Below are positions 1-45,064 of a DNA stretch of 64,000 bases, one piece after another. A program made the position numbers and the translations under genes. The notes under the pieces were generated by a model. It made no database searches. It saw only the letters and a list, made by a program, of their open reading frames with translations, and had not been told where the DNA came from. The DNA is from Mansonella perstans (lineage: Eukaryota; Nematoda; Chromadorea; Rhabditida; Onchocercidae), in the NCBI GenBank assembly GCA_037074765.1, contig JBAMDO010000017.1:389264-453263 (forward strand), read 5' to 3'. Every line of letters starts with the position of its first letter. Position 1 is the first letter of the stretch.

Positions 1-193
1 TTTATATGATGTTGCTAACGTGCTTTTGTATCTAATTGGTTAGAAAGATGCCATTTACATGGGTTAAATGAACTGGAATTTTACACTAAACTCTTTTTTA
101 ATTCTAATTTCACTCAAATCTGAAATTCTCTAGCTTTAGATCCTTTTCATTTCCAAAATTTTTCACACTTTATTGAGTTCAGGATATATCCAG

Positions 194-2087
194 ACGAATT
201 CATGAATCATAGCAATTGTCGAAATTTTGATTTAACACTGAGAAATGATGATAACAATCACCATTTGGCCATACACATGGAGATAATCAAATCTAATGCG
301 TCAGCAATAGGTCCTTGGTGCTATGCTTACGATACTGTTCGTTTCGTTTTTCAATGCAAAACAAAAACTTTAATCCTTTTTTATCCGATTTAATTGCCTT
401 CTAAAAAAAATTGAAATGCTGAAGAGGACATTATTGTAACCGTCTAACTTTTATTACAGTTTTTATTGGCAGTACGTGTTTTTAACCTGTAGGATTAAGG
501 ATTTTTTTCTAGTGAAATTTTTATTATTTATAACTTTAGATGCTGGAGTCAGTGACGATATTGTTTATTTAAACTTCAGAAATATGATTTATTCAAGCAA
601 TGAAATTTATCTGAAATCAAGATTCTGACTTCTTAAAAGATTATCACGCACATCTCTGCGAAGATTAATTTCTTAAGGCTTCTGATTTGCATCTTTTATA
701 GTTTCGATGTTGGCTAAATAAGCGTTATATGCCGACGATTTTGTGTGGTATTAAGAGCAGACATTTTTGTTCTAGTCCTAAATATTCCTAGATTGGTCCT
801 AGTCCTAAATTTTCCTAGATGAATAATCAATAAAATTGAGTAACATTAGATTAGATTAGATTATCAACGAAAGATATATCATATTGAAAAGCTTCTTATA
901 CCGAAGAATGCATTGTTATATTTTTCTGTATGAGTATTTCATAATATTTTTTTCCTACAGTTATTTAAATTTCAATAGTGATTAATTCCACCGAAAGATA
1001 TTAGTATGTTATTTGAGATCCACTCAAAATACTATGTGGCACGTTGCTTTCCTGAATGTGTTGGAAATAAGTATCAGAACAGTACGCTTCCTTCGCGTGA
1101 GTTTTTCTTGATTTACCCGTCTCTTTTGTCTCAGCTTTTTCAGTTTATATCATTTTGACACTGTAGCTATCATAGTTTCTCTCGTGTGATTTTTACCGAC
1201 ATCTTCGAGCTTTGTAGGTCGCATCAAAATTCCAATAGCTATGGATATGAAGCCGAACTACAATACGAAACTGATAGATTCAATTGCTATAAACGCTTTT
1301 AGCAGATACGAATGGGGACCATCTGATTATTATGATTCTGTATATTATTAAGAATTCGATTCGTTTCTAAATTTATATATTTAATAAATCTCTTGAAAGT
1401 TCCGATAAGTTTTATAGATTATCTGCTTAGATTATTATTGTACTGTTCTTTAATATAACGTTACAACATGTGCAGCAAAAGAGTCATGATCTACTAATAA
1501 TGATCATTGATATAGCATTCCTATTTTCTACAAATGATACAATGTGCCAATAAATCTGTTAAGATTCCTGTTAACTTGGAATACAAAATTGTTTAGTTCA
1601 TTGTTCGTCTTAGTTTTAGTAAACTCCATTCTTTCATTTCACATCATTTCTTTTTAGAATTCATAAAATCAAATCATTTTCAAATGTTATTTATTTTTAA
1701 TAGACTTTCAGAGCGTTTTTAGAGACCGTCAAGTGTGTTACTATCGGCTGAATTTGAAAAAAATCGTTATTCAGCTTTCGTTGCGATGATTTTCTTCGGT
1801 ATGGCTCTTATGAGCTGCAGCATTTTATTCGTTATAATCCAAAATTACATTAAAACTAGGCATAAAAAGGTAAGTAATTCAAGCCATTTTTTTCTATCGC
1901 ACAACTTTTCAATGCTAATTTTATATATGTTTCTAAGCTTTCAATAAATAGAATTTTTCAGGAAGAGGTTGAAGGAGAAATACCTTCAAAAAGGCAATCC
2001 ACAGCGAAGAAGTTACCTGCAGCAGTTGCTCCTGCAGTTTCAAATCCATGCGAACACTTGAAGCAAGAAAAGGGAACACCCGTATAA
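194..2087 (+). CDS. Single-pass membrane protein with kringle-like signature (5' partial)
   Basis: I do not recognise a named ortholog. Four C-terminal exons join in phase: 1005-1096, 1218-1339, 1723-1869 and 1962-2087 (stop TAA). They encode a short Cys-containing ectodomain with an NST glycosylation site, then one hydrophobic segment (about 20 residues, from SAFVAMIFF to LFVII). A basic stop-transfer stretch (KTRHKK) and a Lys/Ala/Pro-rich cytoplasmic tail ending in GTPV follow. Upstream, an open exon from 194 carries NHSNCRN and, about 30 residues later, GPWCYAYD, which resembles the CRNP...GPWCY core of kringle domains. The layout recalls kringle-plus-TM proteins such as PIK3IP1, but that is inference. 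I could not find a phase-compatible junction between the 194 exon and exon 1005, so the kringle part may belong to another isoform or gene. The 5' end lies outside the window or is unresolved. Confidence 0.5.
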
Positions 2088-3172
2088 TACAATCTGTTAA
2101 TTTAATTGTGTTTATTTGTGATAAAAAAAAAGTTTACTTATGATGAAAAGAAATCCTAATTTCTAATACTTGTTGGTGGGACACATTTCAAGGAACCCTG
2201 TTTTCTAAATATTAAAGGGCGAAAAATTGAATGGAACTGAAAGTTTAACGCAACGGAAGTGGGAATGATCGTCTGAAGGATGGATCAATCTTTGTTTGAA
2301 TTTTTTTTTTAAATCCGTTGTTTTTTGAAAAGCAAAAGTAATTAAAAAAAGTAATCTGTTGTTTTTTGAAAAGCAAAAGCAGTTTGGTGTTTCTATACAG
2401 CGTATATTTGAATATGTTAGACTTACATACTTGTTTGTGGTCTCACTCAGGATTCAGCATAAGACTTCTTCTCTCAGAAACCTTTTCACAACAAGGGTGA
2501 ATTTATTGGCGAGACTAAAGATTACGAGAATGGACAAAATTGAACTGAACTAAAACATTCATTCCATTACTCAATTTTTTGTGGTTTATACTTACGTTAC
2601 AGATCAGAAAACACCAGATACAATAGTCGCACAGAAAATAATTTCTGAACAATCCTAAGGAAAGATAAACAAGCAGTAAATTAAAATCAATTAATTTAAT
2701 ATTTATTCCCAGCAAACGTTTTTAAATTGCAAAGTTTTAGAAAGTTTCGGGTTTTTATCAAAAAAAATAATTGTAAGAAATTATTTTATAATCATGCCAA
2801 TACAAATCATTTCGGTCTTCTCGATAAGTGTTGTCGATATTGATATGTTATCATTTGATTTATCATTTAATCTGAATAAATTCTACCCCCATGATTATTC
2901 CAGTTGACCATAATGACTTTATTAAAATTATAGTTTCGATGAACCCCGATTCCCATATTGCATTCCGAAAGATATTATATTTGTAGATCATTTCATTGAG
3001 TGGTTTGGTCTGCTTTAATTTTATCTGAAGCGGCTATCACTGATTTGCCCAAAACTGCGGTGAAGTTTTTAACTGGAAGACGATTCTTAACTTTTCTTTT
3101 TTAATACATAAAAAGTGAGCAATATTTATGCTGATAAAAGGACTTCGGGAAATTCAATAACTACTGTCCAAT
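2088..3172. other. Convergent intergenic spacer
   Basis: AT-rich DNA between two convergent genes. It contains a 22-base direct repeat (2317-2338 and 2358-2379, beginning GTTGTTTTTTGAAAAG) and a 31-codon ATG-started open frame at 2891-2986 with no other support. Confidence 0.6.
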
Positions 3173-6100
3173 TTATTGTTGTCGTTTTGGTGTTGAAATG
3201 GTACGCTGAAAGCTTCCAGTTGTTGTTGTAACTTCATAAGTACGACCTTGGTTTCGACGGTGACCTGCTGCAGTAGTTGCTGGAACTATCGACTGCGGAA
3301 TGTCTTCCTCGTGGACTCTGTCACTGGGAAACATCAAAAATTAAGATAACCTTATTTCATTTTATCCTACAACTAAAGGTATCTGCACTGTGAAAATCAG
3401 TAATGTGCTAAACATTTGGTTTCTAAAGTGTGATTTTGCTTTTTTTTTTTAAATTTAACAAACAAATGTTGTAATTAGTCTACGCGAAATCATTACACAC
3501 TTACGTGTACTCCTCCTTCAAAGAAGACGCACTTATACGTGGTAACCTGAACCACTGAAAGAATGGACTCACGCGCTCCTCCAGTGTCATTGGTTTTTCT
3601 AATGCATAATAATAGTTTTCTTGAAAATATAGAACAGAGTGACACTGAAAATAATACAAGTAATATGTTACTGGTTAACTTAATACTAATCTTTCTTTAT
3701 CAAATAAATTCAAAAGTGATGAGAGAACTTACTGCATGAAGAAATAAATTATATTTATTTTCAAACCAATGAAATATTTTGTTATAACATGAAAAAACAA
3801 AGCATATATAAGTTAGCTTTTTGAGATGCTGTTAAAATGAAAACTTTCAAATTTATTTAAAAAGAATAATCCTAAACAGTTACCAGAAAAAGAGCAATAA
3901 AAAAACCAATCAACCATCCGAACCAAATGTCTCTCCAATGATTCTTGTAACCACTGATTCGCGAAAGTGAATCAATCAGTGTAAGAGCCATGAAACCAAA
4001 TATCAGAAATGGTCGCAGTAAAGGCGCATTACGTACGTTGATCATATTGTAAATGTAGCACTGCAAAATTGAAAAAGCAAAGAAGATTAAGTTCACTTAT
4101 TTCATTCATCTTTCTATTTCACCAATAAATTCCTTATTTTCCTTCATTCTTTAACTGACAAAATCAAAATTCAACTTCCGCTTCCGTATTGAACTACTTA
4201 AGTCCTTACTCAATTTGTTCAACTTGTATGGGATCATGCAGTTAGATATGTAAACAAATACCGCAGCTCGAGACCTTATTATATTATGAGGTGAAAATCT
4301 ACGAAACAATGTCAAATAGATAAGAATTTTAAATGCTTATTCAAATTAGTGAATTACCGAAGCAAATGTGCATGAAAATGATGAAAACGCCGCATGGAGT
4401 GACGGAAAGGAAAGTGAGGCATAGCGCAAATCGTCAGGATTCCGATATATGCAGGCTAAAAAGGGAGATGGCGATGGCGATTGCTGAAGCGGTCCTGTAC
4501 AAGCGCTGTAATTTCATCTCGCGTTTTGTGTTGGGAAAAAAGGCATAAAGTTAAAATTGTTCCACTAAAAAGTTTAGTGAAAATTAACCGGTTAGAGAAA
4601 AACCAAGTCGAGAATGTTATAGCTAAGGCCTCGGAGTACATCTGACCACTTCATTCATTATTTCTTCATTAGAACTCGGTAAAAGAATCTCATCTATCTT
4701 TGCCAATATTTATATCTTATTTAGAACGGCTGATTTCAACGATTTTCCTTTCTGTATAATTAACATTCAAAAAAAGACTAGCCAGAAATTTCAAATGTGA
4801 AGTTTTCTTCTTGCCATAAGTGAAAAAATCTCTTTGAAAAATAAAACTAGAATTTAAATTTAGACATGGTTGACTTTTTTATCTTATCCAGAAAAGCTGA
4901 TTTCTTTCTTCCGATGAACCTTTTCTTTTAAACTCATTAAAAACTTGAAACGCTCATATTAAAGGTTTCATTCTAACAGCAATAATCACTTGCGAAATGC
5001 AGTTTTGATGGGTAGCGAAACATATACAATAAATATCATCACTAAAGGAAGGTGATGAAGATTATCTCTTACAAGAATCTTTTACAAAAGTAAACAAAAG
5101 ATAGACTGCAGTCTGTAATGAGGAAAATATAACTGGGAGAACCTTATATTTGGTCTACAAAGAGACAAAAAGTATGGTCGATGATAACCAGTCATAAATT
5201 TGATCGTATAAACAAATATTTGTGTTATAAGTGCACCAAACATAAATACACCTGAAATCCGAAGTCATCAGAACATTTCATACTTTTATTCATCTTTTTC
5301 ATTTTAACTTTGATTAAAATCAAAACTGTTTCAATACAAAGTCAATTTTTCGAATGTTTGTAGATTCAAAATTCTTAAAAGAATTGGTATTCTATTTGAG
5401 AAGCAAATTACAATTTTTTGGAATGTTCAAAATTTAAAATGCGACTTATCAAATTAAGAACAATTTATTTCGTAAGTTCATTGCTCAGATTACGAAGTAA
5501 ACTTCGGATTCCCGTAATATATACTGGTGTTTTCACCGCGACTTATCAACCTTTCTATTGTTTTAGTTTAATAAAGGTTAGAGAAATGAAATTCCATCAA
5601 AAGATTTTTTAACTTTATTCTGCTTACATTAACACTTAAGTACAAAGTTAGCAAAACTGATAAGACGTATGAATGTTGCTGCGCTCTAATGCAGTGTTTC
5701 GACGACTGACCAATAAATAGGGTAAACCGTCGAGTTAATAAATGAATTTTACATTCACCACAACTAGCATAAACTTTCTTTCTCGGTTTCGTAGAAAATA
5801 GCCAAAACATTATTTCACCGATAAAAATCTATAATAAAGTAAGAACTTTGCATGAAAAGATAGAAATTGGTTAAATTCTCTAGATTTAAAAAAAATTTTT
5901 TTTTTGAATTTTGTAATTGCTATTGGACAAATTTCGCTTACGCTTACTTTTTATTATGAAGTGGAATACAAAAGTAAATGGAGCTTAACCGAGCTGATCA
6001 AGACAACCTGTTTAGGTAAGTATGCTTTAACTCAATCGCGCCGCTGGTAGAAAAAAATGTGAGGAAAGATAAAATGGTGGAATATAAAACATACAACAAG

Positions 6101-11700: not shown

Positions 11701-13962
11701 TAAAAACTACAAGAAGTTTAATAGTTAGAATAAAATCTGTTTAGGTTTTCAATTCTTTCTTTTTGCAATGTAGTTGAACATGAAATCTATCTGAATATTA
11801 TGAAAATTAGAATAATGCAAATATTACTTCAATTCCATATAGTTTGCAGTATATGGTCATAGCAAATTCTTCGAAGCGATAGTAAGACTTATTTTTGATA
11901 GATAACACATAGTTTTATTAAAAAGTAATAAGAATTCTCATATATCTTGAGATTTAATCTTCTGTATATTTCATCTCATTACAGATATGCGATGTAAATG
12001 GTGTATTAATTAGTGAACGAAATGTTTATAGTAACCAATATCCGGATGTAAAAATTATGTTGGGTTATGTGAAACATGGACAATATACTCTTGTTGGTAG
12101 CCGTATAAAATTTAATGCCTATTACAATGCTCCATTACAATTTTATGTAGTTCGGTCGTATCGTCGTTTAAAGAAACAGTCGTTTACAGCAAAGCCATTC
12201 GATTACGCATCATCGTTTTTGGTTATTTTTCTTTTTTTTAAACATCTTTCATAAAAACCCATAGTTGAACACCGATAAAAATTACTGACACATCGTAATA
12301 GAAGGCATATATCGATCAATATTTTTCTCTAAGCTTGTTATATTCCGCAAAGTTGATATTTTCATTAGATTTTCTGGACGTATTCATGATAAATGGCATG
12401 AATTTACAGCAGATCTCCGTTGTGAATCTACGCTTCATGAATAAAATAAAATTAACTCGAATTATTATTCCGTTAATTTTATCATTTTAGTTAGAGGTTA
12501 ACGCTAGTTGGGAACCAGATTTGCCAATGGGATATTTGCGTTCTGAAAATAAGGATCTGGGATTGATCCATGATCCAGATGGACTACTGCTACCTGTATT
12601 ATTAGGTAAAAATCCAAATGCACTGATCTGTATACATGTGGCATATACAGGTCCTAATCGTTTAAGTTGTTTTGCAGTAAAAGACATATCAGCAAAGGAA
12701 GCAAATGTTGCTGTCAATAGTGGCTGTGTAAGAGATTATTTTTTTTTTTTTTTACTTTTTTCTCGTTTTCCAATTTACAAATAAAAAATGTTAAAGTTTC
12801 TCAAAGGGTATAATATTACAGATTATTTCAAATTTCTCAAACTGTTAAAGTTTTCAAGGTTTCCTATTGCAGTTATTTGGGAGCACGAAATTAATGAATA
12901 ATTGCAATAACCTGTAATATTGTATCCTTATTACACCATAATATGCTTCTTAGCAAGGATCACTCAATAAATTAACAACTAATAAAATGCATTACACAGT
13001 AACTTTATATAGATTAATAATTTAGACTACGTTAAAACTTCCTCGTAATGTAATTTTAGATGGAGCTGTCGGATGATGGCTTGGTTTTGGATGACGGCTC
13101 TCTTTTAGCATCCCAATGTTTGAAAATTCGCTTCGATGGTAGTTCGCACGAAGAATGTGACAAGCTTATTCCTGGGACATGGGTCAAGTTCACAGCATGG
13201 AGTCCTGCTAACATGCCGGATTTCAGAATCAAAACTTGGAAACTTACAGATAATCCACATTTAATGAAGATTCATGCAGTTCCTACATGCGATGGTTATG
13301 CGGTAAGTACACATCCCTCCCTTTGATGCCCTGTGAAGCGTTAAATTAAAAAGAATGCTTTTGATTTCATTTAATCTACCTTTTATTACACCATATAGAG
13401 CTGTGTTAGATATATTGTGCGTAATTTGGATTTGAGTGAAGGACTGGATAAATCTAAAGATTTGTATAACAACTTTTTTGCTTACATTTGCCTGCGTTAT
13501 AGTTTTTTGAATGCTTAAGAATTTTTCAATTTTAGTTTAAAACATGTGGCTTTTATGAAGAAAAGCTAAGCGCCATCCGATCAACCGTATTCGGTTTTAT
13601 TGAAATACCGCACGAAAAACGACCGCTGATAAACTCAAAAAATAAAGATATAATGACTGTCTGGGTACGAGAAGATAAAAGGAATAAAACAACACGTTTT
13701 GTGTTTCATTCGATTGAAATGCCGCAGCCTATCGTAAGTTCACTTACAGAGTTGGATTTAAAAAAAAAAATAAAAAAATTTTATATCTACAACTATAGAA
13801 ATTTTATATTTACAATTATTTATATTTATCATTTAAAAAAAATAAATGCCTCATTAAATGGTCTTGCTACTTAATTAAATAGTTAAGTGGTTGCCAAAAC
13901 CGGATAACTCTGGTACAATGTCGGGGCGCAAGATCACTTGCAGACGACTTGATTACCGGTGA
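8783..13962 (+). CDS. Uncharacterised 544-residue protein, ten exons
   Basis: Ten exons join in phase: 8783-8947, 9357-9491, 9827-9954, 10170-10281, 10687-10791, 11985-12221, 12491-12727, 13060-13302, 13536-13733 and 13888-13962 (stop TGA). Donors and acceptors are mostly consensus (gtaag; tttag or cag); the exon-1 donor (AAA|gtggtt) is weak. I recognise no catalytic motif, signal peptide or TM segment. The product is rich in alternating hydrophobic/polar strands and scattered Cys, with an acidic patch (GSDDDESDSD) encoded at the end of exon 5 and a basic tail (GRKITCRRLDYR). Two segments of similar texture (exons 2-4 and 7-9) suggest repeated beta-rich modules, perhaps OB-like; this is only an impression. 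It is probably intracellular. It is divergent from PLPPR and convergent with the GPS2-like gene. Confidence 0.85.
9065..9185. repeat. AGATGAATT..AATTTTTCTT short tandem repeat in intron 1
   Basis: Units of TAGATGAATTA(C/T)C(C/T)(A/T)A(G)TGAATTTTTCTT separated by T runs recur about four times inside intron 1 of the 8783 gene. Confidence 0.7.
11543..11670. repeat. 43-base tandem repeat in intron 5
   Basis: ATTAGAGACAAAGTTGAGAA recurs at 11543, 11586 and 11629 (exact 43-base period). A shortened unit at 11648 follows (period about 19). Copies are near identical, so the expansion is recent. Confidence 0.9.
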
Positions 13963-21200: not shown

Positions 21201-22463
21201 GCAATCGTTTAGTCTTTCCCAATGTTAATTACTGTTCTGTTTATATCGTTGGTATAAGCTTAGCGAGTAGTCAGTTTGCAAAAAATAAAGAATCTGAAAT
21301 CAAACAAATGTTTAAGTGGAAAGTAGTGTGAAGACTATTCTTTCATCTTAAGTTTTATCTTCAAAAAATATAATCACCAATTAAGTAATCCAATTAATCA
21401 ACTAGTTATTTCGATATTCAGGTTGTAATTTCATTGTAATTTTGTTTACTCACTTAAATGTATGAAATTAGCTTGTTCAGCAAAACTTTATATTTTGGAT
21501 TGTTTTCGATGACTAAATATTTAAGCGAAATCTTGAATGGTAAACCATTGGAAGTGGAAGTTAAAGGACTCGAAATCATGAACGATGATCCCACTCGTGT
21601 TAATGTACTATACGCACTAACCTCATCAGATAAGTGCGTTTTTATTTCAAATTCCATTTCTTAATTATTTTTCCCCTGACGTTTTGTCACTTTTATTACT
21701 TTTTAGACTGGCCGATGTCATGAATGCAATATCAAACGCGATGAGTGATACAGGTTTCGCTCCGCAGCAGAATTCAGTAAAGATACATTTGACTCTTATG
21801 AATACCAGATATATGGTTAGTGTTCCGAGAGATAAAAAATTTCGATTATTTTCATGATATAACATAATTTCATTAAGAATAAAAATGCAGCTTTACAGTG
21901 GGAGAAGAAAAAGAAACGAGAAAGGATGGATGTGGCGAAGTTGCTGGAGAAATATCGAAATTATGAATTTGGAAAAGTCACAGTAACTGAAGTAAGTTTT
22001 TGAAATGCGGTAATTTTAAGATATAAATTCATAACAGTTATGAAAAAGAAAATATCGATGCATTGCTTGTAATTCGGCTGTCTAATACCAAGTACAATGA
22101 AATGTATGCAGTACTCTATAGGTTGTATAAATATACTATTATAGGTTATAAAAATGACCAGTCTTCAGTTGAAAGACTAATTTAAGTACAGAAAGATAAA
22201 AGATTTATTTTAGAACGTATTAGCTTATCAGAGACGTCAACAACAAACAATATACATTGTTTGTTGGTTAGTTAATGAATCCCAAAGTCCATCACTTATC
22301 TTGATTAATAAGTAATATTAAACGATCAGATGTGTTTTGCATGCTTTTCACATTTATCCATCCAAATTTTCAGGTCCATATATCGAATTTAAAAGGATCA
22401 AAAGATGAACACGGATACTATTCTTCAATTGGAAACTTTGAACTGAACAAGATAACGATGTAG
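18259..22463 (+). CDS. ASCC1: ASCC1, activating signal cointegrator 1 complex subunit 1
   Basis: Eleven in-phase exons: 18259-18335, 19112-19188, 19583-19742, 19992-20119, 20552-20736, 20820-20876, 20991-21127, 21481-21633, 21707-21815, 21899-21991 and 22374-22463 (TAG). They encode 421 residues, close to human ASCC1 in length. The N-terminus keeps the EIDGRIYRRN element. A KH domain follows (about residues 105-150, GPKG loop), then a 2H-phosphoesterase-like fold with both HxT motifs: H244-L-T246 and H352-L-T354 (IHLTLMN). The GKPLEVEVKGLEIMNDDP block and the terminal VHISNLKG...GYYSSIGNFEL strand are diagnostic. In animals ASCC1 works with ASCC2/ASCC3 in alkylation-damage responses, transcription coactivation and stalled-ribosome handling. 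Residues 25-105 are acidic and poorly conserved. The gene is head-to-head with the GPS2-like gene and convergent with USP19. Confidence 0.95.
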
Positions 22464-23481: not shown

Positions 23482-26400
23482 TTATTCAATACAATAATAT
23501 TTCTTGAGCAAATCCTGTGTTGCATTTCCATGTTGCTTATAGAAGAGCAAGTAAGCATCATCATTTTGAACACGTGAAAGTTGTGCACGTGTAACGATCG
23601 AATCATCAAAATTACGCCAATCTGTAAGATATAATGGTATTTAGATGGAAGTTTAAAAAAATTTCACGAGAAATATAATAATTAAAATTAAAAGTCAAAA
23701 TTTATTTTTATTTGAGTGACAAAATATTTTTAAATTTTTATAATAATTAAAATTAAAAGTCATTTTATCTGAGTGACAAAATTTATTTGTATTAGAAAGG
23801 AAAGTAAGAAAATTACCGATTTCTGTCGTTTTTCCATCAATACTTTGCAATCTACCTAGCGATATATAATGTCCAAAATAGCTACTTCCAGAATGACATA
23901 CTACGCCTGTCAAATCATATTTCGTTTCCTAAAAAATGAAATTAATTAGAAGAAAAAAAGAGAATCTGTCCAATGCATTAACATTATTTGTAAAAAAAGC
24001 AAATATTTCTGAGTCATATATTTCTGAATTTGAATTTGCATAACCTGTCCCGGTGGAGCAGTATCGGCTAAAAATTGAGCTAAGTCGAGATTATCAATGG
24101 GATATCGAACTGGACGATCATCCTTGGAGCGACGATGTATTGTCATTAGCGATGTAGTGTAAATGAAACGTTTCAATTGGACAATCAAAATAGGAGGTAA
24201 ACGGTACAGAATAAGCTGCTTTGTTGCTTCTACATGTTCTTTACACTTACTGCAGTACCTAAAATTGGGAAAAAACTAGCAAAGTGCAGCCTATATCTAT
24301 GAGGATAATAATTCTCTACAAATTATTTTATTTCTTTAAATAAAAATAAAAAAAAAACACTACTTAATAATAAAACAGTTTTGGCAACAATTTTAACTAT
24401 TCTGTTATTATTCACTATCACGCTGTCTAGAATTTATGAGATTAGCAAATTACAACATATACCAAGATTCCTCCGGTTTAAGGCGTTCTGTTTCTGAGAA
24501 CATCGCTAACATATCGTACAGTGATGGATTCGAAGCAATGTTACTCGAACTTGCCATTGATGATGACATCCTCTGATAGTAAGCTGATTTTTCGACGTCG
24601 ATATCCTGCAATACGACAGCTTAATTTTTTTTGTTGAAATTTTTAAGATTTTCGGAATTTACAGAAATAAGTATAACATATACGATACTAATGAAATCTA
24701 ATAACTTACCACTTCTCTTTTTGTTTCCACTGTTAAATATTCTTTGCCTAATTTCAAGTTGATCCAATTAATTGATAGAAATGTTTCATTTGGTAAATCC
24801 AAAGCTACTGAAAACCAGATTATAAATACTTTGTACGAATCTAATAAATAATGATTAATTTTTACTACTGTATAATCAAATGACATTTTACATAAAATTC
24901 AATTTTTCATCAAATTTATTTCTACAAATTAAATTTTTTTTTTACTTTGCATAATCATCATGATCAGATTATGTTAGCTTATAGCTGAAGTGTTGCATAA
25001 ATCAAACAAACATTCACTGCGCTTCTCAAATTTAATAGCAAATAATAAAACTAGAAAATAGTCCGGCAATAATTTAAAAAAGAAAATCATCGAATTTTAC
25101 CATCAGAACGTGTTTCAACCAGTGTATCACCAATGATAGCATCTGGTTGTTGTAGTTTACGTACTATGAAAAGTTTCGATTCTGTTTGTAATTTATTTCG
25201 TGGCTCACCAAGAACCATTTGTCTTTTCGCCGCAACAGGAGTTACCTCCATCTAGATATGGATGAACGTAGATTTATGGTGAGGAAGAGATGAGCATCAT
25301 AATTTTTCTTAAACTTCATGCTTATCTCATTTCCGATCGAATGATTTCTAACTATAAATCTTCTAACTATAAAGTTTCACTTTTAATAAAGTTCAATGTA
25401 TTTAACAAACCGGTAAATCATCAGCATTCCCATTAATAACAGATAGTGAAACACTCGAAGTGGAACCAATATATGATTCACGAGAAGATTCCAATGGATC
25501 AATCGTTGCATCGTTGTTATTTTCAACTGGTGGTTGGAATACATTAACTGAATGTCTGGAAAAAAAAATTACATAAATGAATAAGTAAGAAGAAATTTGG
25601 AAAAGTAAGTGGTTGTTCGTTGTTGTTCATTTTTCCGAAAAAATAAACAAGTACTTGTTATTGAAAAAGAATCAAACAATTTTTGTAACTAATGATTTTT
25701 TTTTTGAAATGTATATTTTATGAATTCCACTGAATTACAGTAATAATACTTTCAAATAAATATCATATTTGTCATTATAGACGAAAAAAAAAATGCCTTA
25801 TTAATATAAGTACGAAAAAAAAAGCGTCACGAGAATCACTGCCATTGAGTGAATAATTGGTCTTAATGACTTTTCTTCCGATTGCTAGCAATTTTCGGCT
25901 TTTATGGGATGGCAAGGAATTGACAAATAAAAAAAATTATCAACATCTATGAAAAATTCGGAAAAACCTTTCAATAAAACCTGACAACAAATCTTTTAAT
26001 CAATGATTAATGCTTAGAAAATTCATTAAATAATTATTTCCTATAGAAAAATAAATGAAAGAACTAACCTGCAACGACTTTCCAAATTTCGCATAATATT
26101 CGAATAAGTAGCTCGTTTTTTAGGCAACGAAATGATGAATGGTTGTCCAACAGCTTCTGCTTGGGTTCGTGATTTACAGCTGATTTTATGCATCGGCCAA
26201 TTTGCCAACTGACATTCGCTGAAAAAATAAATGATAAGTGATCTTTTGGGTTATTCGAAAAAATAAACTTAAAATGAATTAAATAATATTTCATTATTAG
26301 CTATAAAAATTATTTCTGTGACCTTTAAATGAATGTCATGTCATTTTAAGAGTAAGGGCAAATATATTAGATTCCGGGCATCTCACACTACGATAATGCC

Positions 26401-29400
26401 AGACTGTTGTGACTAATTGCCACTGAGTTGATTGGCGAGTATAAATGTTGGATTGGTGACTGCTTTTGTCGGTAAGTGTATTAGAATGAACATAATACTG
26501 AATTTTAATCATATAATATATTTTAACAAATAAAAAAGAATCAATCTCAAATAATAAATGGTAATTTTCATATTTCATATCGTTAAATATGTATTCAAAA
26601 ATAGAAATGAAAGTACACTTTAAAATCCACCTTAAAAATTTGATAATTATATTTGAAATAATTGCATTTATTCTTGTAAAAAATAAAATGGCAATAAATT
26701 GAGACTATTAATAGTTTTACACTTCGAAGTTTGAAGTTTTGGTAAATGAACTTTTTTTTTCTTCATGCTTCTGTGCTTGTAAATAAATCTCTCAATGGTA
26801 AAAATAATTGAATATCTCTCAAATTAATTTTCATATATTCAGGAATCCTTATTTCAACTTTTTTTTTTTTTTTTTTTTGGAACAAATTCATTTTCATTTT
26901 TTGAAAATAGCATTGGAATAATGAATGGATTTGGAGGAAAAGTAATTATTACCAAAAGTAAAATGAAAACAAACCGACTGCAGTAGAAAGCATCGTAGCA
27001 ACGCTCGCAAGTTTTTAATTTCACATCCGTTGCTTGACATCGAGCACAAGCACGACAGATACCCTTACGATAGAGAAGACGCTGAACAACGGCAAACTCA
27101 ATAATATCATCATTGCAATCATATGGATCATGTATTTGAAAACTGAAACAATGAGTAATTTGAGATGTTTCAAATGAAAAAAATGAAGCCTTTGCTAGCG
27201 ATCTTGATACGGTATTTTAATTTAATAAGCAAAAAAATTCGACCAATTTATCCAAAATTTTCTGGAACAAAAATTTCAAATATAGAAAAATTACAAGCTC
27301 GCAATTAAACATATTCTTAAATAGCAATCTGACAGCTTATTTATTTACAAGAATTTTACATCTTTTAATGGTGCCTTTTGAACGCTAATATTAATTTCAT
27401 CAATTATTAAAGGCAATATTCTGAACAATGATTAGTCGTCATTATTTATCATCAAATCCATCAAAAAAAAAGACAGATTTTCAAATAAATAAATTGTTAG
27501 AACAAATCATGGATATAGGTGCTGGATTTAAAGAAAATTTTAACGTACACATAAATAATGTCCGTAGTAAGTATGTTGTTAACACTGTCATCTGGATTAT
27601 ATACGCGAACAATATGATGATTGTTTACTTCGATCATACGCATCTAAAAATTTTATATCGACCTTAAAAATTACAAATTTCTATTATTACATTTTTAAAA
27701 GCAAACCATGAATGGTACATGCTAACTGATCACTACACTACTAATTCACTACTTGTCAAACTTACAGAACTTGGATATACGTTAACCAATCGTGACAATG
27801 CATCTAATACTTCTGAAATTTTGCCATCTGCGTTATATCGTACCGTAATCTGCAAAACAGAACGCATATAAAAATTCCATAACTTCCAGTAACCTTTATA
27901 ATCAACTCGTTGTATGGAAATATGAAAAAAACTTTTCTTTTTTCCAGAAAATCAAGCTGGAAAGTTAAAATACATACTCGAGCTGGTTTAAGACATGGAT
28001 CAAGAGGCCAAAAATACACCATCGAAGAACGTTTTTCTTTCGGGAACGGTACAGCAAGATAAGCAAACGGATCGAAAGTAATGGATATCTGAAAATACAA
28101 AGCAAAAGTATCAAGGAATAAAGACCAGAAAAAAATAAAGCTAGATATTTGAAAAGCAAACCAAAGACATATAAACTTCAATATGTAAAAGATGAACCTA
28201 AATTAATAAGCAACATTTTGTTTCAAAATAATATGGAATCAATTATTTAATTTGGAACTAATAATCTGGTCCCAAAATAATTTGGACTTAGAGCAATATT
28301 TGTTATAAAATTAATTTATATCAGTTCCTAGTAAATTCACCTGATTACATTTCGGACATTGAAGTCTGGATTTCAATTGGCCATGAAAAAGATCCACGAA
28401 AATGGAGTCATTACGCAATAAATAGTTATGCCATGCTTCACGTGAAACCTTAACAAATAATTATAATGAAAACTTGTCAAGTGTAAAATTAAGATTTTAA
28501 TTTTGAATTAATTCACACTTCGATATCTGGTCGTCCTTCAGCTTCAATTGTGTTTGTTGTAGGCTTCAATCGAACTCGATTAAGATCTTCATGCAAACCA
28601 TCCAAAACGAAACTCAAAAATTCATGAGCATCATGCTGGGCAAAATTTGCAAATTGCGTAGCCTTCTCAGCAACTAACTCCTACAAAACAAAACTATACA
28701 TAATTGTTCGTCATCACTAACCATATATATTATGAATTTTGATAAATTATTTAAAGTTTGATTATTACATCTCAAAACAATTTCTGAAATATACATGATT
28801 TAAATGGCTAGAAATATAAATTTTAATGGCTCTAAACTTTAAAAATTTGCATACCTTTATTTTCGTTGGTTCATATGCTCGATTCATACCATTCCACATT
28901 TGCTTCATGAATTCTGCGAAAACTTCAGCTAAACGTCCACCGAAACCAAGTGGATTCATTACATTGATATCTTTCTTATAGTAACCCCCTAAAACATTAT
29001 GGGAATCTTCTTCTAGAATACTAATTATCTAATTAGCAAGAAAGTAAGCAAATAAGAATAGAATTAATACGTAAAGCATTCAAATCAATACAGCATCTGT
29101 TTACCGCTAAAGTAAATTTGAAGTTCTTTGCAATTGACGAGCATCTGCAAAGTGGAATTCATGAAACATGTATTTCCAATATTTCGCAAACCAGTAAAAC
29201 CACAGTCGACTACTGTACCTTGCTCATCATATGGTAACACCTGCAAACAGAATCCTAGAAAAATAATTCCAGTAAAATCTTAGTTTCTGAATTTAGAAAT
29301 GAATAAATTTTATAAAATAAATAGAAATAATAAATTTCTCATTCATAAACAGAAAAGCACCGAAATACCACATTCTCATTCATCACATGAAATCACGAAC

Positions 29401-36420: not shown

Positions 36421-36588
36421 ACTTCTGATACTACTGGTAATAATGCTTGATAAACTTCTGATAATAATGGTAATAATGCTCGATGGAATTATGATAATAC
36501 TGGTAATAATGCTCGATGAAATTCTGATAATACTGGTAATAATGCTCGATGGATTTATGATAATACTGGGTAATAATGCTCGATGGTC
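36421..36588. repeat. 33-base minisatellite, about five copies
   Basis: Units of the form (A/C)TT(C/A)TGATAATACTGGTAATA continued by ATGCT(C/T)GAT(G/A)(A/G)A, period 33. The last copy carries a one-base insertion (CTGGGTAAT). The period is a multiple of three, which creates an apparent 11-residue repeated frame on the plus strand; I do not regard it as coding. Confidence 0.9.
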
Positions 36589-38556: not shown

Positions 38557-41500
38557 ATGTCGTCAAAATTTGGACTTGATTATGCGAAACGAATTGCCAA
38601 ATGTAAGAAATGTCAACAACAATTATTTAAAGGGGTATATTATATCTTATTTTCAAATATTTTCAATTACATAGGTCATTTGATTTTGTTATATATTTTT
38701 TTTTTCAATTATTTTCAATTATTTCAATTTTTTTCAAATATTTTCAATTACATAGATCATTTGATTTTGTAATATAATAGAAGACAAATGTATATTACGA
38801 ACAAAAAGAAAAGTTTCCTTGTTGTCATATCTGTGTACGTCAATTGTCACGTAAAATTTATTGTCACGTTTTACCGAATGCATTTTTCACATTTATCATT
38901 TTGATTTTCATTTGTTTAAATTTGTTTTATTAGTATTTTTATTTATTTAGATTTTCCTTAATTAGTATGCTTAACCAGAATGTTTAACTTTTATGTATTC
39001 CTACGATTTAATTGATTTCAACTTATTTAACAACATTTAACACAATTGGAAAAATTGCTAATTGGAAAAGCTTGTATATAAATTTTGGTATTTTCGATTT
39101 ATTATCTTTTTATTTATTTTTTTTTTACCTAGGATTTACGAATGTGGCGAATGGTACCGAATCCTTTTACGGCAGATACTGGAAATCCAACAGAAATGAA
39201 AAATTATTTCCATCCAGATTGTCTTTTTGAAACACTTACACGTTGTCGTGCTGCAACGAAAGTGATCGATTCATCAGATGATATCGAAGGTTTCTCAAAA
39301 TTATCTGTGATCAATTTCTCTCATGTCAAATATCTTAATTTTTTTTTTTGCTAAATGAAGATTTTACAGGTTGGGATATTGCAAATGATGATGATAAAGA
39401 AATGATCAGAGAGAAAATTAGTAGTCTTTTGGAATTACGACAGAAAAAATTTGGTGACAAAGTAACGATTGCTTCAAAAGATGCTTCCAAATTAACCATT
39501 TCCAAGCATAAATCATCGGAAAAAGTAAAAGATGAAAAAGTAGAAACGCTTATCACCACATCTAATCGAAGAAAAGAAAAAATTGCCGAGAAAGGTGCAA
39601 AGCAAATGAAATCTAAAAAAATTGGTGAAAGCAAGACAAACACTTCTAGCATGAAAAATGATCAATCAACATCAAAAATGGAACCAAATGAAGCACAGGA
39701 TAGTATTCAAAAGAACAGTAGCAAGTTCGATGGATTTAAATTATTTTGCAAACTTTGTGATGTGATTGCTTCAGTATCGAAGTACACCGAAAAGACTGAA
39801 GCTATCAAGATATTTATTAACAAAGGTATAATTGCATATATGGATACTGATTTGTTTTGTTGCACATTCAAGTTGTAAGGAAGAATTATAAGAGAAAAAC
39901 CTGTCATGAATTCGGGTAGTTAAAATTTGTGATTTGGGCATCTTCTCAAGCTTTTCTCTCTTTTAACATTTTTTTGTTATTTTTGAATTTTTGTTTGAGA
40001 TGAATGAGAGGTTACCATAGGAATTTATTTTCGTTTATACTTATAGCATTTCCACTTCGTTTACAGCCTAATTATTTCATTAAGTACTCAATTAGTGGTA
40101 TCGGTTTAGAAAAAAACCATTTTACTACCTATGTTATATAATATTAGTAAATGAAAATAACAAATGTTATTTATCGGTATCAAATAATGACTTTTTTAAT
40201 CAGTATTTGAAGGTTTTAATTTTTAATTAGATTAAGTCATTCATTTCAGAAGGATATGATGGAGACCTTTATCTATTGCTCAAATTTTTAATTCCAGAAG
40301 CAGATCAGAGAGTATACAATTTGAAAGTTAAACAGATTATAAAAATTTTTTCCAATGTAAGTATGTGAATTCTCTGTTATTCATTGTTGGCTTAAAACTT
40401 GAGTAGTACAGAGCTCGAATACTAAAGTTGTATGCTGTAGCAGCTTGGTTATACCATGCTTATCTTTCCTGTTCTTCCTTCGTTGACTGCGTATATATCC
40501 AATTCAGAATTTGTTATCTTTCACAACGAAATTAACTGGAACTGCTCAAAAATAAGCAATTGAACAAGTTTTACAATTTTTTATTTTAAAGTTGTTTGAC
40601 TGGTCAGTCGATGAGTTGACAGAGTCATTCAATCAAACAGGCGACGTATCGGAGACAGTATGCTCGTTTATGTCAAAATTGGGTGCTGATCGAAAAAAAT
40701 CGAAAATAACAAATCAAATGGTAAGTTGAAAATTTGAATGAATGAATCGTTTGCCATGCGTATTTTGTAGCATTATAACTGTAACTCTGATCTGTTTTTT
40801 GTTATGCAAATAATTATAGTGTTTTATTTTTGTGATCTGAATGGTGTTGTGATTTTCATATAGAAATTTCTGAAATATCTCAAATTTAGGTAGACGAATG
40901 GTTAGAGAAGTTAAGTGAATTAACACGAGAAAAGGAGCAACAATCACATTTCTCGAAAATATGTGAATTGTTAGTAATCGTTTTTTGTTTCTTGGGAGGA
41001 ATTAGATTCATTATATTTATATTTTGTACAGAATTCTTTCAATTTCCTTTCACTTAACCGAAAATAAAAATTTTTGCAAAAAAAAATTTCACAAAATTTT
41101 TTATCATTCATGCTAAAAACAATCTTTAATTCCAGCTGTAGGTAAATTAAATTTATATAATTGCAGAGTTTCATGCTTGGAACTGAAATACATTATCCGT
41201 TTGATAATGAAGGACTTGCGTATAAATGCAGGCGCGAAACATATGTAAGTATAAAAGTGACCTAAATTTCAATATGTCAATTTATTTTTTATCTACATTT
41301 TATATGTAATCTTTCTTTAAAGTTTTTCAGTAATGGTATTACTTTTCATATGAAAATATTGGAATTTCTTTTCAGCTCATCATTAAAATCTCCCAATGAA
41401 TTCAGTTCATTTTAAGGTTAGAAGGCCTAAGGGAAGGTGCGTATGAAATGTTTCAACATTCACGAAATCTATATGCCGTCATTGAAAAATGTCAGCACGT

Positions 41501-44500
41501 TGATAAGGAAAAGTTACTTGAACGAGATATAGTTTTAAATACGCCAGTTAAACCGATGCTTGTAAGTTTTTGCGTGTCATCCATCTTGGATTGTGATACT
41601 ATACTTCTTGATTTTAAAAATCTCATACTAAGATATATAGGTAAGACAGGAAATTAAAGAATTAGAATCAGAACGCATGAGAACGGAAAACAAAGAAACA
41701 GGATTTAGTGATCCGTTGATCCCTCTTTTTTTGCAAGATTAAGACGGAAAATGTATTTTGATCAATACTTATCCCAATAAAATCCTTTCCAGGTAGTGAT
41801 TTTTGAACTAAGTTAATATTACAAGTAAATTTACTATATTTCTTAAGGCCAGACCATGCCGAACTGTTGAACAAGCTATGGACGATTGTAGCGAAGAAAT
41901 GTATGCTGAAATCAAATATGATGGAGAAAGATTGCAGTTGCACAAAGATGGTAGCAATTTTGTGTTTTTCTCGCGGTCATTGAAGCCAGCATTGGATCAC
42001 AAAGTTTGTTTGTGAATTTTTATAAAGATTGCGTTTAATGCAACTTTTAACTGCCTTTAATTTAAAACAAGCAATTTGCTTGTCTGTTTTCGATTTCGAC
42101 AGAAAATTGTGATAAAAAGATAAATTGTTGGAAACCAATATTAAATGTTTACAAATTCTCTCTCTTATATTCTTATTTCATTCTATGAATTCTATTTCAT
42201 TCTTTTTGACGAGAATATCAGAATCTTTATTGGTTTTCTGTTAAACTTATCACTACTTAATGTTTTTGTTACTTTTATAGGTCGCTGATCTGAATAAAGT
42301 GATCTCAGAAGCATTTCCAACGAATAGAGATTTAATTGTTGATGCAGAAATGCTTCTGATTGATACAAATACTGGAAAACCGTTACCTTTCGGTACATTA
42401 GGTATCCATAAAAAGAAGCAGTTTAAGGATGCGGTAGTTTGTTTGTTTGTTTTCGACTGCTTATATTACGATAGCACATCTTTGATCGATAAGTTAGTTT
42501 CAATTGTTTTTGTTTAGAATAACATAACTTAGGTTTTTAACACTTTCACAGAACATTATGAAAACGTTTTCAATGTTAAACGTAGTAGATAAAGTATTCT
42601 AATGGAGCAAACATGGTGAAAAAAGTTAAATCCGTACAGGTAAAGTGTTTTTTTTAGGTCTTTGAGGGAACGACGGAAATTTTTGGAGAATAATATGAAA
42701 GAAATTCCAAATCGTGTATTGTTATCTAATTGCCATCTTATCAAAAAAGGAGTAAGTTGGCTCGCTTATTTTTTGCTAGTCACCAAATTTGATTTTGTAT
42801 CTTTTAGGTTTGATATGTTGGATTGTTCCAGGAAAATGATAAGTTAAAAATGTTGATCTCAAAAACCATTGATGAAGGTCTAGAAGGTTTGGTATTAAAA
42901 GATTTGGATTCAATTTATGAACCTGGAAAAAGGCATTGGTTGAAGGTAAATTCTGTAATATCTGAGTTTTTGTTTTCTAAACTGAAGAAAAATTTTGTTT
43001 TCTAAACTGAAGAAATCCAAAAAGATTTTGTTGTATATTCGTTTGTGTTGAGCTGATTTCCAAAAACTTTAAAAAAATTTTTTTGCAGATGAAAAAAGAT
43101 TATCTGAAGGAAAATGATATGGCAGATACAGCTGACCTTATTTTACTTGGTGCTTTTTATGGGACAGGAAATAAAGGTACTCATTTGCAATCTGTAAGGT
43201 TTATTCATTTTTAATGAATGTTTATTTTTGTATTATTTTTTTTATTTTTGCTTATTTTTACCTATTTTTGCCATATGATCAATTTATCATGGTATAATGT
43301 AATTATTATTATTCTTTTAAATAATATTATTTCTAAGCAGAACAGCAATCATTTCTTCATATATTTACTTTATCTGTTTTTTGTCATTTTTTTTAGGTGG
43401 CACATTGTCAGTGTTCCTGATGGGAGTATATGACAAGGAGAAGCAGAAATATTGCACAGTAACCAAATGTGGCAATGGCTTTGATGATGCCACACTAGAT
43501 CGTATCAATAAGGAGTTAGAACCAAAAGTAATTAATATTTCTGAGTATTTTTTGTTATATCTCTTTAGAAAATCTATCCATATATATATGGATGAATTTT
43601 GTCAAGAAATTTTTTAAGCCATATTGAGATTTGTAATTTTCACTGTATTTTTTTTCTCATAGCATATTATGTTCTTTTAAGATACATAAGATATCTCGAA
43701 TATACGAAAATTTACCAGAATGGATTGAATGCTCTCGATCGCTTGTGCCGGACTTCATTGTTATCGATCCCAAACAATCACCTGTATGGGAAATTACAGG
43801 TATTTTGAATTACAGCGTAGTTTGGTTTTGCATTCTATGTAACAAGTGAATTTAGGAGCGGAATTTACTCGATCGAATAATCACTCAGCATCCGGTATAT
43901 CGATACGTTTTCCGAGAGTAACAAAAATTCGACATGATAAAAATTGGGAAACAGCTACTAGTTTACAAGAACTTGAGGTGATTTTTTGAATAACACATAC
44001 AAGGAAGAGTATTGTTTTGATGTTTTCATTCGGAATTTCAAAATTTTTGAATTTTAATGGAGCTTTACATCGCATTATCTGGTATCTCGAGTTTAGTTGT
44101 TATAATGTGTTTCAAAAGTTTCTGATGTTAAGCATTAGAAGCTTCCTTCTTATTTCATTTCCGTCCTCTACCTTGGTATATACAATGCCTATCATACTTA
44201 TATGAGTTTATCATTTAGACATTAATGGAACTATCGAAAACAAAAAGTGATGTTAAGCCAGAAGTTGACGAAGTCATACCTCCTTGCGTTACGAGTAAAG
44301 ATGGTGCAGAAGATGATGGAGAGGGTTTAATAGCAAGAAAAAGGAAACGAGAAGCGACTGACGAGAATCCTGGGAGCAATGAACAAATTTCTATTAGCAA
44401 TGTAAAGGAAGATGATGTAGATGAGGAAACAAATGCGAAGAAAGCAAAAATACCGTGCAAGTTAGTTTTCTTGAAGAAACGGGGATATAGGGGTAATGGA

Positions 44501-45064
44501 TAGCTTGATAGATAGATAGATGATAACACAGGAATGCTACCTTGACGAAAAAAACGCTGCCATAAAAAAATGCAAATTAGAGAGTGAGAGAAGAGAATAT
44601 GAGAGATACCTATCTATTATCTAGAAATGCAATGCAAATCAGGCTCTTCATTACTGTTCTTTTCGAGAGCCACTTCTCTGGCAACTTTTGGTTTTAGGCC
44701 TTTTAAAATTCATACTTATAAATCTTGTGGACCATACTTATCCTTTCTCTTGTTAAATAGTTTTATTTATGTATGTGAATGTACCGTTTTGATTTTTCTA
44801 ATAATCAGTGGGCTTTTGTTGTGAAAAATCTATAAAAGTTAGCTTTTGATTGGTTGTCCGGTAATGTAACAAAATAATTACATATTAATGAATCTTTCGT
44901 GCTAATGAAGAAATTGATTATTATGAGAACTACATTTTTATCATGCATTTATTCATATCTGAATTACTTCTTTTTAATTTCTTAAGTATGAGAATTTTAG
45001 ATACGGTGCGCAATGTTATCGTAAGAACATGGAACATCGAAAAAAATTTGAACATCCGAAATAA
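38557..45064 (+). CDS. LIG3: DNA ligase III with N-terminal PARP-type zinc finger and C-terminal PBZ finger
   Basis: Eighteen in-phase exons: 38557-38634, 39133-39289, 39361-39825, 40250-40356, 40592-40720, 40890-40969, 41167-41244, 41417-41561, 41848-42003, 42281-42492, 42658-42751, 42832-42945, 43089-43176, 43397-43527, 43682-43799, 43856-43977, 44219-44460 and 45001-45064 (TAA). They encode 859 residues. A PARP-type zinc finger (C16, C19, H53, C56) precedes a Lys-rich linker (about 90-205). The DNA-binding and nucleotidyltransferase domains follow, with the AMP-accepting K436 in EIKYDGER. Motif-IIIa-like CLFVFDCLYY, motif IV EGLEGLVLKD and motif V KRHWLKVKKDYL lead into the OB domain. The tail is acidic/basic with an NLS-like ARKRKR. 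The last exon completes a PBZ finger, C838-x5-C844-x6-H851-x5-H857. No BRCT domain is seen. Expected role: nick sealing in single-strand break and base excision repair, possibly also in mitochondria. Identity is certain; the PBZ assignment follows its exact spacing. Confidence 0.95.
38645..38770. repeat. Duplicated segment in LIG3 intron 1
   Basis: TTTTCAAATATTTTCAATTACATAG followed by (G/A)TCATTTGATTTTGT occurs twice, at about 38651-38690 and 38730-38770, separated by a TTTTCAATTA-like run. Confidence 0.8.

Follow-up and report, generated by a model that had tools for sequence, protein, structure and literature searches.

A nematode DNA ligase 3 that ends in a poly(ADP-ribose)-binding zinc finger and carries no BRCT domain

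Introduction

How does a DNA ligase reach single-strand breaks when it has no BRCT domain? In the usual account, PARP1 makes poly(ADP-ribose) (PAR), PAR attracts XRCC1, and XRCC1 brings DNA ligase III (LIG3), the BRCT domain of vertebrate LIG3 being the part that binds XRCC1. The question is raised by a LIG3 gene in a 64,000-nucleotide stretch of the Mansonella perstans genome (contig JBAMDO010000017.1, positions 389,264 to 453,263; the whole stretch is called the window, and positions are counted from its first letter). An earlier reading of the letters alone, here called the sequence-only reading, had described this ligase as ending in a PAR-binding zinc finger (PBZ) instead of BRCT and had proposed that the finger could replace the XRCC1 bridge. 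The computational analysis reported here makes it quite probable that the protein is a true LIG3 which keeps an ancestral PBZ, has no BRCT domain and would be brought to breaks by a PBZ that binds PAR. Statements from the literature refer to passages of the articles cited.

The C-terminal finger

The last two coding exons, 44219–44460 and 45001–45064, join in phase as TGC AA|A TAC and end with TAA, as had been read from the letters; the intron between them starts with the donor GTTAGTTT from 44461 and closes with the acceptor AGAATTTTAG up to 45000, and the joined exons encode KIPCKYGAQCYRKNMEHRKKFEHPK followed by a stop. The C-x5-C-x6-H-x5-H ligands of the sequence-only reading stood, as C835, C841, H848 and H854, but its residue numbers were 3 too high. 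A Pfam search with the whole protein placed zf-CCHH (PBZ) at residues 832–856 (E = 1.9e-10, 40.9 bits against a cut-off of 22.7), and the profile hidden Markov model check proposed earlier for the tail, run on the last 37 residues, gave zf-CCHH at E = 2.4e-12. The two exon pieces scanned separately by hmmscan matched no family with E of 1 or less, and the last exon alone was matched in the genome search at E = 2.9e-7. Since the strict pattern has 0 occurrences when all six frames of the window are translated without splicing, the full motif exists solely after splicing. No other PBZ was found above the cut-off in the 75.7-Mb genome, where two more matches had E = 2.1 and 4.0.

Among solved structures the tail comes closest to the PBZ of APLF (2kuo, E = 4e-11; 2kqb, E = 1.1e-10), and the APLF residues Y381, Y386 and R387, named as contacts of the adenine or phosphate of PAR (PMC6264785), align with Y837, Y842 and R843 of the worm ligase. 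The structure prediction suggested earlier was run on the Loa loa orthologue with an alignment of 60 sequences; predicted local distance difference test (pLDDT) values were 85 and 87 for the final two ten-residue blocks, 66 for the block in which the finger starts and about 30 for the preceding linker, with an overall mean pLDDT of 75 and a predicted template modelling score of 0.46. A fold search with this model returned ligases, human LIG3 (3l2p) first, and was uninformative on the finger. On these profile and structure comparisons the C-terminal finger is confirmed as a genuine PBZ on LIG3, and it should let the ligase read PAR directly.

Identity and architecture of the ligase

Judged by its domains and nearest solved structures, the product of the window gene is a genuine DNA ligase 3, from a filaria-like nematode. 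All 17 introns of the spliced model are GT/AG, and internal stops number 0. The PARP-type zinc finger that had been assigned to the N-terminus was recovered by Pfam as zf-PARP at residues 10–95 (E = 1.1e-12, 48.9 bits against a cut-off of 39.3) and by comparison with the human LIG3 finger structure 1uw0 (E = 1.7e-20); C16, C19, H53 and C56 are presumably its zinc ligands. It is followed by DNA_ligase_A_N (residues 201–366), DNA_ligase_A_M (408–604, E = 1.9e-59) and the ligase C domain (632–743), and the KxDG adenylation motif is present as KYDGER at 433. Among solved structures, the core is closest to human LIG3 (3l2p, E = 2.2e-186; LIG4, 4.5e-46; LIG1, 6e-43), and the protein is 71–80% identical to the filarial entries listed in the protein search, with part-length coverage for some. 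The features of the gene are collected in Table 1.

Table 1 Features of the LIG3 gene in the window
Feature	Positions	Strand	Content
LIG3 gene	38557..45064	+	18 coding exons, spliced product 856 aa
Exons 1 and 2 (38557–38634, 39133–39289)	38557..39289	+	most of the PARP-type zinc finger
Exon 3	39370..39825	+	rest of the finger, basic linker and beginning of the ligase N domain
Exon 9	41848..42003	+	adenylation motif KYDGER, residues 433–438
Exon 17	44219..44460	+	end of the core, linker, C835 (first PBZ ligand)
Last intron, 540 bp	44461..45000	+	splits codon K836 within the PBZ; GT...AG
Exon 18	45001..45064	+	remaining PBZ (Y837, C841, Y842, R843, H848, H854) and stop codon

Absence of BRCT

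Pfam found no BRCT in the window LIG3 protein. A hidden downstream BRCT exon was considered and rejected: a home-made profile of the LIG3-type BRCT, run over all six frames of the window, gave a best E of 0.22, on the other strand, and LIG3_BRCT over the genome gave no candidate, although the genome-wide null alone is no proof of absence because no control genome rang either. Among the 29 named nematode LIG3 entries listed (see below), the home-made profile detected BRCT in one, Plectus.

The finger in related nematodes

A protein search gave 1079 matches at E up to 0.001, and the best 120 of them include the 29 named nematode entries. PBZ was counted by pattern and BRCT by the home-made profile. 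Because the motif was found by pattern, the constancy of its four ligands among the matches is not usable as evidence, and the nematode counts are of entries rather than independent species, since several come from one genus. Of the 29 listed entries, 18 have PBZ without BRCT, both domains occur in one (Plectus sambesii) and neither occurs in ten; the finger is thus common to related worms, as the sequence-only reading had anticipated. Two unnamed entries, P0011 and P0017, taken as nematode by their rank in the list, also have PBZ without BRCT. Public LIG3 sequences from Loa, Acanthocheilonema, Litomosoides and Cercopithifilaria have a near-identical ending, and three congeners of Pristionchus pacificus have a LIG3 with the PBZ. 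Compared with five related worms, the window protein shows 75–92% identity in the finger, 27–49% in the linker and 75–85% over the last 450 core residues; that the finger is better kept than the linker suggests that the finger is under purifying selection.

Eight of the motif-less entries look like annotation gaps, from gene models that are truncated or read through. The four listed Brugia entries (P0001, P0002, P0004 and P0005) stop at KIPCK, the residue where the last intron of the window gene begins, Wuchereria P0020 and Gongylonema P0021 carry unrelated residues from the last-intron point onward, and the Ancylostoma ceylanicum entry and a partial Angiostrongylus entry end otherwise or early. 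In the public proteins of Brugia, Wuchereria and Gongylonema the PBZ exon has probably been missed.

Additionally, a short motif of acidic residues followed by P-L-[YF] was seen about 20 residues past the core in 13 of the 17 BRCT-less nematode entries tested (e.g., P0015 and P0030). It was found neither in Plectus nor in the three non-nematodes tested, and it is unrecognisable in the window species, Brugia, Thelazia and Mesorhabditis. It is perhaps a docking site.

Distribution across animals and origin of the architecture

Two protein searches, with the best 120 matches of each, yielded 204 different proteins, 173 of which are neither nematode nor nematode-like. Counted by the same pattern and home-made profile, these 173 comprise 41 LIG3 with both PBZ and BRCT, 117 with BRCT alone, 12 with neither domain (several of them named as isoforms or unnamed) and three with PBZ alone, two of which are named isoform X2 and one partial. 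Examples with both domains come from Ephydatia, Trichoplax, corals, molluscs, Owenia, Lingula, Branchiostoma, Glandiceps, Apostichopus and Strigamia, and include LIG3 of a sponge, a placozoan, cnidarians, molluscs, an amphioxus and a centipede. None of the listed vertebrate LIG3 has a PBZ, and in the tree described below the vertebrates (five rows) and insects (four rows) have BRCT only. In two decapods the PBZ is worn: Palaemon, at 24.1 bits, lies just above the Pfam cut-off and Homarus below it, and the pattern counts both.

The view that PBZ stands in for BRCT as a novelty of these worms finds no support, since the two co-occur in those 41 proteins and in Plectus. The co-occurrence makes the PBZ probably ancestral, with the loss of BRCT as the worms' own change; given PBZ in sponge, placozoan and cnidarians, its loss in vertebrates and insects is the simplest reading. 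From these distributions, PBZ on LIG3 is probably an ancestral animal feature that vertebrates lost, as these worms lost BRCT.

A quick tree of the core was built from 52 rows, with LIG1 and LIG4 left out. The 19 nematodes form one clade with SH-aLRT (Shimodaira–Hasegawa-like approximate likelihood ratio test) support of 100, the 18 BRCT-less nematode rows form a clade beside Plectus with support of 97, and the window LIG3 is nested within the filarial worms. BRCT changes twice on the tree, once at the Tubulanus isoform X2 row, and PBZ three times, with Brugia and Setaria excluded from the PBZ count; C. auriculariae is a long branch, and gain and loss are not separable by this tree. We take the named worms other than Plectus and Loa to be Rhabditida. 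In the NCBI taxonomy Plectus is listed under Plectida and Loa under Rhabditida.

Position 9 of the finger, the site of APLF R387, is Arg in all 20 BRCT-less worm entries (18 named and 2 unnamed) and in the window. Among the 45 other LIG3 with a PBZ, 39 have Gln, Plectus included, four have Asn, one has Leu and one (Trichoplax) has Arg. The pattern is suggestive of an Arg that goes with BRCT loss.

Copepods provided a separate observation. In the LIG3 of Tigriopus (P0122), a macrodomain at residues 801–909 stands between the core and a BRCT at 984–1061, at the position of the PBZ in other invertebrates; the unnamed entries P0077, P0121, P0123 and P0132–P0136 list the same domains, and no macrodomain is listed for LIG3 of Lepeophtheirus, a second copepod.

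Repair partners in the genome

The profile search was run exon-wise over the unfinished assembly (75.7 Mb, 539 contigs). Four exon matches to PARP_reg were obtained above the cut-off (best E = 8.9e-7), and zf-PARP exon matches (best 8.4e-4, below the family cut-off) lie at one end of contig C28; the presence of both families at this end indicates a PARP1-like gene (bases about 1–5900, minus strand) that seems to extend past the contig end. The PARP catalytic family gave one match, on contig C26, at E = 0.0016, below the cut-off, and it could not be confirmed. PARG (1e-17), PNK3P (4.7e-22; PNKP) and the ligase core, the last on four contigs, were matched above their cut-offs.

No credible match to XRCC1_N was found in the genome. 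The one candidate, an implausible match of 33 positions at E = 0.02, was rejected: it reaches the cut-off only with its neighbours and has a stop inside, and the open frames around it resemble, by eye, a REEP-type gene. BRCT_2 was matched at five places, none of which was recognised as XRCC1, without further scanning, and two of them, on contig C42, resemble, by eye, one TOPBP1-type protein. On these searches XRCC1 is likely absent from this genome. The palm of X-family polymerases gave nothing at E up to 10.

The missing polymerase match agrees with the report of a C. elegans without polymerase beta (PMC7744777). C. elegans is also reported to be without XRCC1 (PMC3969565), which is worded as a condition in PMC7744777. 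LIG-1 and LIG-4 are named there as possible C. elegans ligases, and K07C5.3 is tabulated as LIG3 (PMC3195855); perhaps, as a guess, K07C5.3 is a diverged LIG3 remnant. A search for such a remnant in C. elegans with the C. auriculariae tail gave the query alone among 9 candidates.

Proposed mechanism and its alternatives

In the mechanism proposed, PARP1 would make PAR at a single-strand break and the PBZ would bind it, a flexible tether of about 65 residues would let the PBZ hold the ligase at the break, and the N-terminal finger and core would find the nick, so that LIG3 would reach breaks without the BRCT–BRCT bridge to XRCC1 used in vertebrates. On the residues and partners predicted here, recruitment of the ligase through its own PAR binding is the most likely route. 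A broader proposition, to which we would give a little less than an even chance, is that a large nematode clade, which shed the LIG3 BRCT once, needs neither XRCC1 nor polymerase beta for single-strand break repair, and that the ancestral PBZ, sharpened by the change from Gln to Arg at the residue that contacts phosphate, became the main link between PARP1 and ligation.

Several points weigh against the proposed mechanism. The finger motif is missing in 10 of the 29 named nematode entries listed. In Setaria P0007, Ser replaces the first Cys (SKYGV) and the protein ends four residues on, and Dirofilaria P0026 reads CKYGAQCFRK and then passes into another frame inside the finger; this damage may be real decay or, alternatively, error. 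In two Mesorhabditis entries the two adenine-contacting Tyr residues are replaced by Trp and Ser, and the Arg at position 9 amounts to one event on one branch. Of six control families expected in this genome, PARP_reg, PARG, PNK3P and the ligase core rose above their cut-offs and PARP catalytic and zf-PARP remained below, and an exon-wise search of an unfinished assembly could miss a diverged XRCC1. The hold of one PBZ on PAR may be weak; a second PBZ raises the affinity of APLF more than 1000-fold (PMC4030884). LIG3 has also been listed among the proteins with another PAR-binding motif, and direct contact with PARP1 is reported (PMC8327145, PMC10722394), so the PBZ need not be the sole route.

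Four rival explanations were considered, which are not mutually exclusive, so that their probabilities do not sum to one. Another scaffold, or a strongly diverged XRCC1, might bridge the ligase at some other site, for example the worm-specific acidic P-L-[YF] motif of the linker, with the PBZ merely helping. This is rather unlikely: the motif occurs in 13 of the 17 entries tested and PNKP is present, but the motif is unrecognisable in the window species, Brugia, Thelazia and Mesorhabditis, and XRCC1_N gave no credible match in a search that found four control families above and two below their cut-offs. We see a small chance that the PBZ is real, yet plays no part in guiding the ligase to single-strand breaks through PAR, and that its recruitment depends on the N-terminal finger and core; that pair senses nicks and nucleosomes in human LIG3 (preprint PMC11952658), and the listed vertebrate LIG3 manage without a PBZ. 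Against it, the PBZ domains that have been studied bind PAR (PMC4030884, PMC5087659), the PAR-contact residues are present in the worm finger, and PARP1-like and PARG matches occur in the genome.

The two remaining rivals concern the last exon. It might be skipped, left behind a retained intron or decaying in some filariae, which would make the PBZ optional or a relic, comparable to a LIG3 splice form that lacks BRCT. The KIPCK ends of Brugia, the unrelated tails of Wuchereria and Gongylonema and the odd fingers of Setaria and Dirofilaria would fit this, but the alternative tails vary between species, as artefacts would, a 64-base exon behind a 540-base intron is easily missed, and the PBZ is better conserved than the linker in five relatives; we regard this explanation as improbable. 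That the join is a chance product of splice-site choice is hardly credible, even though the separate exon pieces have no Pfam match: the match that appears after splicing (E = 1.9e-10), the phase-correct GT-AG intron and the near-same endings of the four filarial genera named above led to its rejection.

Relation to known systems

Like the worm protein, human DNA ligase III alpha (LIG3) has a PARP-type finger followed by the ligase core. Vertebrate LIG3 has BRCT at the end and no PBZ, whereas worm LIG3 shows the reverse. In the LIG3 of Ephydatia, Branchiostoma, Strigamia and Plectus the PBZ lies between the core and the C-terminus, as in the worm; the invertebrate proteins with both domains run on into BRCT and mostly have Gln at position 9, whereas the worm protein ends after the PBZ and has Arg. 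The mammalian PBZ proteins APLF, CHFR and SNM1A, which are not DNA ligases, share the finger of the worm protein, APLF being the best solved match; APLF has two PBZs, in contrast to the single one of worm LIG3.

The PBZ is said to have been first reported in a Nature paper of 2008. Its named carriers are APLF, CHFR, SNM1A and several Dictyostelium proteins (PMC8529158, PMC4030884). A C-terminal PBZ on a DNA ligase is described for ligase E (also ligase K) of bdelloid rotifers and Mortierella (PMC10665377, PMC6264785), an enzyme of bacterial origin and not a LIG3, for which these passages mention no PARP-type finger. In Dictyostelium, LIG3 with a macrodomain is an ADP-ribose reader on a repair enzyme, with a different reader fold, and Ku70 with a PBZ places such a reader on a different repair enzyme (PMC5087659, PMC8529158); the Tigriopus macrodomain is likewise an ADP-ribose reader of another fold. 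Neither the finds listed by text searches of the open-licence literature nor passages from it mention PBZ on LIG3. At the same time, databases already carry a Pfam annotation of the PBZ for many LIG3; the finger as such is catalogued, and the pattern of loss is the part not found described in that literature.

The LIG3 of many animals would carry its own PAR reader, which in these worms is the sole recognisable C-terminal docking device. This suggests that sole reliance on the XRCC1 bridge is derived in vertebrates, and it makes the BRCT-less worms a natural experiment on the purpose of that bridge. It also bears on the question, posed for C. elegans, of which ligase seals nicks and what coordinates repair if there is no XRCC1 (PMC7744777).

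Other features of the window

Matches elsewhere in the window mark other genes. At 23949–27216 (minus strand), exons matching UCH (E = 3.3e-8) and MYND (E = 9e-5) on one strand suggest a USP19-like gene. DUF7506 gave a strong match (E = 5e-32) at 12491–12781 (plus strand), and AKAP7_NLS a weak one below its cut-off (E = 0.0028) at 21621–21854 (plus strand). A 33-bp tandem repeat of 4.9 copies occupies 36423–36585, about 2 kb upstream of the LIG3 start codon.

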